From positions 4,030,001 to 4,094,000 of the forward strand of contig NZ_JACCBA010000001.1 in NCBI RefSeq assembly GCF_013409365.1: a stretch of 64,000 nucleotides of DNA, in the 5' to 3' direction. The notes beneath the pieces were generated by a model. It searched no databases and was not told where the DNA came from. It was given only the letters and a program-made list of their open reading frames with translations. This document shows, one piece after another, positions 41,787 through 43,983 of the stretch (position 1 is its first letter; each line of letters begins with the position of its first letter). This DNA comes from Actinomadura luteofluorescens (GTDB lineage Bacteria > Actinomycetota > Actinomycetes > Streptosporangiales > Streptosporangiaceae). A program made the translations under genes and the position numbers.

Positions 41787-42368
41787 TCAGGTGAGGTTCT
41801 TCGGGCGGTAGGCCTTGTACTGGCTGCCGCTGGACAGCCCGTAGGTGCGGGTGCGGTGGTCGGTGCCGTAGCCGCCGCGCTGCTCGTACGCCCAGTAGGC
41901 GGTGTGCTTGCTGCTGGTCCACTTCTCGAAGATGACGACGTGCCGGGTGGTGTTGCTCCCGATCGCGTCGATGATGAGGTCGCCCTTCTTCAGCTGCGAC
42001 ATCGAGATCCGCTTGCTGTAGGTGGACGAGGCCAGGCCGACGGTGTTGGGGCCTGGCTTGGGGAGCCGCAGCGTCATGGACGCGTAGCCGGAGCAGTCGG
42101 TGCGGTAGCCGCCGTGGGTCTTCGACTGGCTGTAGGGGACGCGGCTGCTGGTGTGCGGGTGCCAGGTCTTGGCCCGGGCGATCACCTGGTCCCGGGTGAC
42201 CTTCGGGACGGCCGCCACCGCGACCCTGGCGTCCGCCGCCTGGAGCTGGACGCCCTGCGCCGGCGCCGAGTGCGCGGCAGGAGCGGACACGCCGTACAGG
42301 CCGAAGGCGGTTCCGCCGGCCAGCGCCAGCGAGCTGACGCCGAGGAGAACGGTCCGGGGGGAAGGCAT
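41787..42368 (-). CDS. Secreted NlpC/P60-like cysteine amidase
   Basis: This 193-aa protein has a signal peptide to about residue 35 (AHSAPA) and a compact papain-like domain. The catalytic Cys is C92 in 'GYRTDCSGYASM' and the His is H143 in 'TRHVVIFEKW'. The pattern resembles NlpC/P60 or CHAP-type wall peptidases, though the domain is shorter and its family name is uncertain. It would act outside the cell on peptidoglycan stem peptides or similar amides. GGAGG lies 7 nt before ATG 42368. The divergent gene encodes a membrane-tethered regulator carrying an inactive copy of the same domain. Confidence 0.82.
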   Translation of the reverse strand: MPSPRTVLLGVSSLALAGGTAFGLYGVSAPAAHSAPAQGVQLQAADARVAVAAVPKVTRDQVIARAKTWHPHTSSRVPYSQSKTHGGYRTDCSGYASMTLRLPKPGPNTVGLASSTYSKRISMSQLKKGDLIIDAIGSNTTRHVVIFEKWTSSKHTAYWAYEQRGGYGTDHRTRTYGLSSGSQYKAYRPKNLT

Positions 42369-42696
42369 TGACAATCCTCCGTGAATTGTGCGGGAATTGC
42401 GCCCCGTTGGGCGCCGAGTTCGGGGGTGTCGATCGACCCGGCACACGATAGGGATCACCTCGCGCCATTCGGCAAGGCCGCCGAAAAGGTTGGGACACCG
42501 GGACGCACGGGACGCTTCCGAACTGCGAGAACGCCGTCCCAGCAAGGGGTTGCGCGGGACAACGAGACAACACGGAATGCATGAGGCGGTCACAAAGGGT
42601 GTTTATTCACGAACCCTGGGTGATCAAGCTTTGGTCCTCTTACCGGCGCAGGGGGAACTGGGCATAATGGCCAGCCCTGCCCGAGGGAGACGAGCA
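42369..42696. promoter_or_regulatory. Divergent promoter region of the NlpC/P60-like pair
   Basis: This 328-bp region has no gene. The part from 42570 to 42660 is AT-richer ('gtgtttattcacg' and 'gtgatcaagctttgg') and probably holds the promoter of the fused regulator. No clear inverted repeat was found by eye. Confidence 0.4.
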
Positions 42697-43983
42697 ATGA
42701 GCCGAAGACGACCGCCGACTCCGCTGCCCGACGGCCTGCCTGAGGCGGCACGCATCCTGCTCACCGAACTGCGCGCATTGAAAGAGGATTCCGGGCTCGA
42801 TCTGCGCGCCCTGGAACGCAGGACGCATGCCAGCCGCTCGTCCTGGAGCCGCTGGCTCAGCGGCGAGACGTGGATCCCGGTCGACGCCGTCACCTCACTC
42901 GCGGACCTGTGCAGCGCGGACGCGCGCCGCCTCGCCGTGCTTTGGGAGCTTGCGGACGAGGCTCGGCGCTCGACCCCGTCCGCGACGGAGGCGGCGTCTG
43001 CAGCCGATCCCCTTGCCGCCGCGCCGCACCCAACCGGACCGAACAACCCAGCGCCCCCCGCAGGCGCGACGGCCGTCGCTGATGATGCGCCCGCAGGTGG
43101 TGCCGTGCCCACCGGTGGTGCGACGCCCGTCGCTGATGCGGCACCCGTCCCTGATGTGACGACCGTCCCTGATGTGACGACCGTCGCTGACGCTGCACCC
43201 TCCGGTGATGCGGCACCCCTCCCTGGTGCGGCGCCCGTCCCTGATACTGCGCCAGCCGGTGGTGCCGTGCCCGCCGGTGGTGCTGCGGCCGTCCCTGGTT
43301 CAGCGCTTGTCGGTGGGGCTGCGACTGTCGGTGGGGCTGCGGCCGTTGGTGGTTTGGGTGGTACTGAATCCGCGCGGCCGGGCGGGCTGGCGGGGCGGGT
43401 GCGGTCGCGGCGGTTGCTTTTTCTTGGGGCCGTTGCCGGGTGCACGCTCGTTGCCGGGAGCGCCGGGGTGGCCTTGGGGGCGGCGTTGAAGACGCCGCCG
43501 GTGGCCGGGGACGCGGGTGCGCGGCCGTCCGAGGCGGCACGGCGGCCTGTCAAGGTGATCAGCCGCCGTGAGGTCCTGGCCCGGACGAGGTCGTGGCATC
43601 CACACAGCGCCCGGCGGGTGCCGTACGACCAGAACGCCGGTTACCACGGCTACCGGACCGACGGATCCGGGTATGCGTCGATGGCGCTCGGGCTGCCGAA
43701 GCCCGGCCCCAACTCGGCGCTCCTCGAAGCGTCCTACTGCAGGCGGATCCCGATGGCGTCGCTGCTCCCCGGCGACCTCGTCATCAAGGCGAGCGGCGGC
43801 GCCGACGTGCGCGAGGTTCTGGTCTTCGACCGGTGGACGGGGCCCGCCCGCCGCGGCTACTGGGCCTACCAGCAGCGCCGCGGCTACGGCACCGACCACC
43901 TGGTCCGCAGCGACGGCCTCGCATCCGGCGCCGACCATCACGGCTGCCGCCCCTACAACGTGCAGGACGACCCGGTCGGCTGA
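42697..43983 (+). CDS. HTH regulator fused by a membrane helix to an inactive NlpC/P60-like domain
   Basis: This is a 428-aa protein. Residues 15-90 form an XRE-like helix-turn-helix region of the type found at the N-terminus of many actinobacterial proteins ('LRALERRTHASRSSWSRWLSGE' in pieces). Residues 91-235 are an Ala/Pro/Gly/Val linker with PDVTTV repeats. A helix at 238-262 crosses the membrane. Residues 285-425 match the secreted neighbour ('RSWHPHSARRVPY', 'GLPKPGPNS', 'RRGYGTDH'). The catalytic Cys is G323 ('TDGSGYASM') and the His is E373 ('REVLVFDRW'). It is a pseudoenzyme sensor by inference. ATG 42697 follows GGGAG by 8 nt; ATG 42667 is possible. Confidence 0.85.
   Translation: MSRRRPPTPLPDGLPEAARILLTELRALKEDSGLDLRALERRTHASRSSWSRWLSGETWIPVDAVTSLADLCSADARRLAVLWELADEARRSTPSATEAASAADPLAAAPHPTGPNNPAPPAGATAVADDAPAGGAVPTGGATPVADAAPVPDVTTVPDVTTVADAAPSGDAAPLPGAAPVPDTAPAGGAVPAGGAAAVPGSALVGGAATVGGAAAVGGLGGTESARPGGLAGRVRSRRLLFLGAVAGCTLVAGSAGVALGAALKTPPVAGDAGARPSEAARRPVKVISRREVLARTRSWHPHSARRVPYDQNAGYHGYRTDGSGYASMALGLPKPGPNSALLEASYCRRIPMASLLPGDLVIKASGGADVREVLVFDRWTGPARRGYWAYQQRRGYGTDHLVRSDGLASGADHHGCRPYNVQDDPVG

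Follow-up and report, generated by a model that had tools for sequence, protein, structure and literature searches.

A predicted membrane-tethered HTH_31 regulator with an inactivated NlpC/P60-type outer domain faces an intact secreted relative in Actinomadura luteofluorescens

A 64,000-nucleotide stretch of the Actinomadura luteofluorescens genome (assembly GCF_013409365.1, contig NZ_JACCBA010000001.1, positions 4,030,001 to 4,094,000; hereafter the window) contains a gene whose product joins a helix-turn-helix (HTH) region, a linker, one predicted membrane helix, and an outer domain of NlpC/P60 fold in a single chain. Divergent from this putative regulator lies the gene for a secreted-type protein, an intact version of the same outer domain whose catalytic residues are replaced in the regulator (Table 1). 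The four-part layout and the match of the outer domain to the neighboring protein had been proposed in an original prediction made from the sequence alone, and both were borne out, the former by an HTH_31 match, hydropathy, and a structure model. A longer open reading frame (ORF) with a GTG start at 42388 was unnecessary, since the start MSR...PLP is common to the relatives.

Specifically, the HTH_31 match at residues 23-80 scored 39.5 bits against a cut-off of 27, the HTH was modeled confidently (blocks over residues 11-90 at 92-97), and its fold was recovered by structure comparison. In the recognition helix, S46, R47, S48, S49, W50, and R52 were invariant across 50 aligned relatives. Residues 240-258 formed the best 19-residue hydropathy window (mean 1.96), with a net charge of +4 in the preceding ten residues, and the model placed a short helix at 236-252 with low confidence (53-60). 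By the same measure, a hydrophobic segment (1.45-2.66) was located at this place in the measured HTH-bearing relatives, except the frameshifted P0066, and positive charges preceded it in nearly all of those measured. As predicted by hydropathy, the segment in the regulator fits one membrane pass. The linker of 145 residues that had been described is present, but its length is not a family feature: it reflects expansion of an 18-bp repeat (43073-43353, approximately 15.6 copies) and exceeds that of every other intact relative measured, the linkers of the other measured HTH-bearing relatives being approximately 25-108 residues. Finally, the outer domain was modeled confidently (blocks from 281 onward at 83-97), and residues 285-424 aligned to NlpC/P60 domains, including that of the non-catalytic RipD. 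This domain surfaced in a second structure comparison; with Foldseek alone, the top 50 matches were all of HTH type and none reached E 0.001 or better. No PF00877 (NlpC/P60) match was present in the regulator up to E 10, and no PDB chains were matched by the sequence profile of the regulator family up to E 1. The domain has the fold of an NlpC/P60 peptidase with neither the PF00877 match nor the catalytic Cys and His.

Table 1. Features of the regulator-hydrolase locus, in coordinates of the window.
Feature	Position	Strand	Remarks
Membrane-tethered regulator gene, 428 aa (HTH_31, linker, transmembrane helix, dead NlpC/P60-fold outer domain)	42697..43983	+	Intact ORF
HTH region, residues 16-92 (Pfam HTH_31 at 23-80)	42742..42972	+	Pfam match, model, alignment
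Ala/Pro/Gly-rich linker, mostly 18-bp repeat expansion	42973..43401	+	Length not conserved among relatives
Predicted membrane helix, residues 240-258	43414..43470	+	Hydropathy; low-confidence helix in model; positive charges on HTH side
Dead NlpC/P60-fold outer domain, residues 285-424	43549..43968	+	Model and structure comparison
Gly323 (GGA) at catalytic Cys position	43663..43665	+	
Glu373 (GAG) at catalytic His position	43813..43815	+	
Gln392 (CAG) at likely third catalytic position (Glu162 in neighbor)	43870..43872	+	
Divergent secreted-type NlpC/P60 protein, 193 aa, intact Cys92/His143/Glu162	41787..42368	-	Signal peptide judged by eye
GGGAC[AG] cluster 1 (42492, 42500, 42509), candidate operator	42492..42514	+	
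GGGACA cluster 2 (GGGACAACGAGACA)	42556..42569	+	64 bp from cluster 1
Palindrome GTCGATCGAC near predicted hydrolase transcription start	42428..42437	.	
Putative hydrolase promoter (-35 TTGCCG 42470-42475, -10 TATCGT 42445-42450)	42445..42475	-	Inspection only
GGGCATAATG, likely -10 region of regulator gene	42660..42669	+	Invariant in 11/11 aligned Actinomadura loci
Two GTGATCAC-like sites approximately 30 bp apart (GGTCAC 42588, GTGATCA 42620)	42588..42626	.	Variably conserved in Actinomadura loci

The original prediction had set Gly323 and Glu373 of the regulator against Cys92 and His143 of the neighbor, which was exact, and had overlooked a third change, in which Glu162 of the neighbor corresponds to Gln392. 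We recovered 84 relatives of the regulator by protein search (7991 candidates scored, part of all candidates) and aligned 85 regulator-group proteins, our own included, with 120 secreted proteins, these being the best 120 of 519 neighbor hits (neighbor included). Three secreted proteins without an HTH (P0083-P0085) and three lacking the HTH end (P0080-P0082) were part of the regulator group. Among 83 readable proteins, 82 had Gly at the Cys position and one had Asp, with Cys in none; this count leaves out P0066, apparently frameshifted across the site, and the partial P0086. The His position held Gln (41 proteins), Glu (31), Ala (10), Arg (1), or Met (1, P0071), was missing in one, and was His in 0 of 84, while the third position was Gln in 84 and missing in one. 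In the secreted group, Cys, His, and Glu were each retained in 120/120, such that the proposed contrast between substituted residues in the regulator and an intact Cys and His in the neighbor held across homologs. The residue replacing His varies in the regulator family. The alignment indicates that the other two replacements, of Cys by Gly and of Glu by Gln, which are near-universal there, are fixed and class-specific. Seven new proteins were among the 92 hits of a profile search, in which part of the candidates were scored; the domain was readable in six of these (one being our own protein in shortened form), all with Gly, a non-His residue, and Gln, and the seventh, P0164, was an intact secreted protein without an HTH. 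The pocket residues Asp322 and Ser324 were kept in the regulator outer domain, as were many other residues.

A sequencing error at Gly323 could be rejected, because GGA is two bases from a Cys codon and the codons of the relatives agree on Gly: among 23 dead domains for which DNA was read, the codon was GGC in 15, GGG in four, GGT in three, and GGA in one, hence Gly is maintained although the codon varies. For the dead domain, the ratio of nonsynonymous to synonymous divergence (dN/dS) fell within 0.08-0.36 for all 28 pairs from eight Actinomadura loci, where this domain evolved faster than its partner (dN 0.05-0.18 versus 0.005-0.10). At the same eight loci, dS was 0.07-0.37 for the intact hydrolase domain (that of the window gene at 41787-42368 and its orthologs) and 0.15-0.88 for the regulator outer domain; the lower values may mean that the hydrolase is highly expressed or its codon usage biased. 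When 61 domains were placed in a tree, all 27 live domains lay on one side of a branch (support 98/91) and all dead ones opposite. From this separation, the live and dead forms probably split before these genera did, depending on where the tree is rooted.

Dead domains were not confined to the regulators. In three loci (G102, G144, and G186) the secreted partner carried two domains in tandem, first a live and then a dead one, while the partner showed no dead copy in 15 of 18 pair loci. G102 and G144 also carried a further secreted-type gene downstream that ended in a dead domain. The dead copies of one and the same locus, including that of the regulator, were here 98-99% identical in DNA and differed from the live domain by 20-24%; in the tree they clustered by genome and not by gene. 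This near-identity could have arisen by gene conversion or by recent duplication. The two dead copies of G186 were only 77% identical in DNA. The secreted-type genes downstream of the partner (L092, L095) and P0083-P0085 encoded a conserved N-terminal region joined to a dead NlpC/P60 domain, without an HTH; this region had no Pfam match in P0083 and P0085, the two tested.

The regulator faced an intact relative divergently in all 18 loci with readable flanks (L097, at a contig edge, is left out), comprising 12 of Actinomadura type, three from genus g73 (by similarity to relatives with names, Actinoallomurus), and three from two other genera of the family. Across the Actinomadura pair loci, the catalytic domain of the partner was conserved at 84-99%. 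The distribution of the regulator was patchy, given that it was present in eight of 36 same-genus genomes examined (our own included). The PF00877 score of the neighbor was 20.8 bits, below the cut-off of 23, and its relative P0136 scored 25.8. In the portions of the literature on RipA considered here, that protein is an endopeptidase with Cys383-His432-Glu444, and the invariance of Cys92, His143, and Glu162 in the best 120 of 519 secreted proteins suggests, by analogy, a RipA-like triad in the neighbor. In contrast to RipA, the neighbor is small, without room for the RipA prodomain, and its His-Glu spacing is 19 residues versus 12, hence Glu162 and Glu444 are only presumptive equivalents.

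Next, we considered the region shared by the two genes. Across the 18 intergenic regions, GGGACA occurred 48 times on the regulator strand versus five times on the opposite strand, and at 7.9 per kb versus 0.20 in 279 kb of flanks (40 times); 1000 simulations yielded at most 11 copies, by which chance content was rejected. The repeats were present in all six loci of other genera. By comparison, CGATCGAC, the palindrome core, and GGGCATAATG were Actinomadura features: the core was invariant in 11/11 aligned Actinomadura loci (the full palindrome in 9/11), and among the six loci of other genera CGATCG was found only in L090. The distance between the two clusters, picked by hand with G[GA]GAC[AG] allowed, was 63-64 bp in 12 loci (Actinomadura) and 51-53 bp in six (elsewhere). 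The mean spacings differ by 11.1 bp, approximately one turn, although a single shift of this kind is weak evidence alone (chance ~0.19). Judged by its conservation, the intergenic region looks like an operator. Cluster 1 lies approximately 17 bp upstream of the putative hydrolase -35, an activator-like position, and cluster 2 in G102, G186, and G144 lies 13-43 bp before the regulator start codon (as placed here), a repressor-like position. Together, this geometry suggests that the hydrolase would be activated and the regulator repressed.

The motif also recurred near other HTH_31 genes. The GGGACA pair pattern gave 11 hits in 10 places in our genome versus eight hits for the reversed pattern, and many of the genome-wide pairs are probably chance occurrences. 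Four places were within 350 bp upstream of an HTH_31 domain, namely at the regulator gene, a 914-aa gene, a small gene, and one in opposite orientation, compared with none of seven reversed-pattern hits tested (the eighth overlaps a tested one). The chance of three among the other nine places was ~2e-6, using 74 HTH_31 domains obtained from 150 scored of 549 first-look candidates. The repeats were retained by relatives of the 914-aa gene. A query with the HTH alone found matches in 14 of 148 genomes of the class (our own included), and the best ones outside our genome were likewise membrane-tethered. Among 28 loci outside it, four had a PG_binding_1 outer domain, 13 were DUF2690-like, three had a short tail after the transmembrane (TM) segment, one was SH3-like by eye, and seven were without a clear TM segment; Pfam confirmed PG_binding_1 in all four and DUF2690 in both tested. 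The spaced motif pair was found at 53 bp in three of the four PG_binding_1 genes, versus 1-2% in shuffles, at 54 or 63 bp in two of the 13 DUF2690-like genes, in 0/4 of the short-tail or SH3-like genes, and in 0/8 without a clear TM segment. Four of the latter eight (long HTH_31 genes, NB-ARC type by eye) had three GGGAC[AG] copies at 59/69 bp. By motif search, one of the four PG_binding_1 loci (L170) had a divergent secreted PG_binding_1 twin, with GGGACA repeats between the two genes.

In all four of the Streptomyces-type loci L170-L173, a gene encoding HTH_31-TM-PG_binding_1 was followed by one encoding HTH_31-TM-DUF2690-like. Long HTH_31 genes with open frames of 780-1071 aa, NB-ARC type by eye, were noted at G000:C1:384003-384437 (L004, L098), L023, L025, L026, L027, and L149-L151. 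Upstream of these were two GGGACA copies 10 bp apart, with a third, GGGAC[AG], after a further 59 bp or so; through such a site these genes may regulate themselves.

With respect to described systems, the regulator joins two known kinds of protein: transmembrane transcription regulators and RipD-like non-catalytic NlpC/P60 proteins. The former, which include CadC, ToxR, TcpP, BcrR, and others, are treated as a class in PMC10269533, in the sections of which considered here they combine a DNA-binding domain with TM segments in one chain (a single pass in approximately 56%), read a signal outside, and change transcription from the membrane. The regulator likewise has a predicted DNA-binding domain and at least one TM segment by hydropathy, and would act in the same way. 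In contrast, the words 'NlpC' and 'peptidoglycan' are absent from the main text of PMC10269533, the characterized members in its Table 1 include none from an actinomycete, and the sections considered describe no pairing between a regulator and a live version of that regulator's outer domain. RipD (Rv1566c), reported as a non-catalytic NlpC/P60 peptidoglycan-binding protein in the parts of PMC12067865 and PMC6628586 considered, also retains the fold with catalytic residues replaced. Yet RipD keeps the Glu there, whereas the regulator family has Gly, then Glu/Gln/Ala/Met/Arg, then Gln, and no HTH is mentioned for RipD in those parts, while the regulator domain is fused to a tethered HTH. The HTH_31-TM-PG_binding_1 and HTH_31-TM-DUF2690 proteins (Streptomyces-type genomes, family f20, the name being judged) share a related HTH and the same layout, and three of four of the former also the GGGAC[AG] pair at 53 bp and, at one locus, the divergent secreted protein; they differ in having another outer-domain family and no live-versus-dead enzyme pairing. 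No description of these proteins was found in open-licence literature. A looser parallel is the Mycobacterium tuberculosis XRE regulator Rv0023, which is in an operon with an NlpC/P60 gene according to the portion of PMC7020754 considered. The original prediction had known of no described system of this kind: this stands for the joined form, as we found no description of an NlpC/P60 domain, dead or live, on a tethered HTH in open-licence literature, the only literature covered, so that absence is weak evidence; it does not stand for the two halves, each of which was already described.

Taken together, we consider it probable that this protein acts as a one-component transmembrane transcription regulator, sensing wall peptides via its dead hydrolase domain and controlling both itself and the hydrolase gene. 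The pseudoenzyme-regulator reading of the original prediction gained support, in that no readable homolog among those recovered had Cys323 and there was no sequencing error, and the membrane segment holds by hydropathy. From the operator-like conservation of the DNA, we infer that the HTH may control transcription; it would bind the GGGACA repeats, probably as cooperating dimers on one DNA face. The TM segment would anchor the protein, with the outer domain recognizing peptides of the wall. In RipA, the residue ahead of the catalytic Cys is an Asp that contacts the gamma-D-Glu of the stem peptide, and the Ser following the Cys makes a further contact, according to the portions of that literature considered. 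The retention of the pocket residues at these positions favors, by analogy, binding of peptidoglycan stem peptides without cutting, and from them we infer that the outer domain may bind peptidoglycan. Binding of a peptide, or the end of that binding once the hydrolase has cleared the peptides away, would alter the action of the tethered HTH, so that the regulator could set the level of the hydrolase and itself by reading the substrate of the hydrolase.

Several other explanations were weighed. The dead domain could instead recognize the secreted hydrolase, or its tandem dead copy, giving feedback at the protein level. The invariable pairing, the near-identical dead copies in regulator and secreted partners of two genomes, and the conservation of the partner catalytic domain are in keeping with this idea, yet most partners show no dead copy, the pocket is kept as expected for ligand binding, and related tethered regulators have PG_binding_1 instead, and we regard it as unlikely. 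Somewhat less credit is due to a scaffold like RodZ, in which the HTH would contact the cytoskeleton and the dead domain would anchor it to the wall, with no role in transcription. RodZ has an HTH fold and a layout similar to that of the regulator. However, the HTH of the regulator is of another sequence family: no HTH_25 (PF13413) match was present up to E 10, and the genome has a separate HTH_25 gene (G000:C1:2007396-2007581, 69.8 bits), by which membership in RodZ was rejected on sequence. The invariant recognition-helix residues, the conserved motif repeats of the promoter region, and their recurrence close to other HTH_31 genes also argue against a scaffold.

Alternatively, the outer domain could hold the regulator at the membrane until cleavage under wall stress frees the HTH. 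A flexible linker of variable length and a single Gly/Ala-rich TM segment would suit such proteolytic release, which is without specific support, no search having been aimed at a protease gene or a cleavage motif, and which we judge improbable. A functionless, decaying gene fusion would account for the lost catalytic residues and the faster evolution of the outer domain relative to its partner, but is contradicted by the fixation of Gly and Gln across genera, the low dN/dS in every pair, and the conservation of both the pairing and the intergenic sites, leaving it a very slim prospect.

It has long been asked how bacteria with a wall monitor the condition of their own peptidoglycan. Should sensing of wall peptides by the tethered regulator prove true, it would offer a one-gene, directly testable answer, with a named operator and a sensor that is a dead copy of the hydrolase under its control; the ligand should therefore be the hydrolase's own substrate. 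Moreover, the motif and layout suggest that the set of tethered HTH_31 regulators bearing outer domains for peptidoglycan recognition is wider, and there is a fair chance that the regulator belongs to such an undescribed class. In its full form the proposal is tentative, and we give it slightly less than even weight: filamentous actinomycetes would have twin-domain wall sensors in which a tethered HTH_31 regulator bears a peptidoglycan-recognition domain (dead NlpC/P60, PG_binding_1, perhaps DUF2690), can lie opposite a secreted protein that shares this domain, and works via phased GGGACA clusters. In the NlpC/P60 branch, the regulator would read the wall through a dead version of the very enzyme under its control, and in some lineages regulator and secreted partners would keep near-identical dead domains, probably by gene conversion.

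Secreted relatives were also found without an HTH neighbor among the loci fetched. A scan of genome contigs with the single protein gave six loci, one of them a low-complexity match in a Streptomyces record. At L046 (G033:C22, 6879-8498), which has no HTH gene, a secreted-type relative had an intact DCSG and an extra C-terminal region. Secreted-type relatives also lay 2-4 kb from the record end in five listed of 18 Streptomyces plasmid records. Finally, the relative at NZ_CP109020.1:3482-4096 (L176), on a linear plasmid, had DCSG and RHVVIF motifs and was adjoined by RICIN-domain and glycosyl hydrolase genes.
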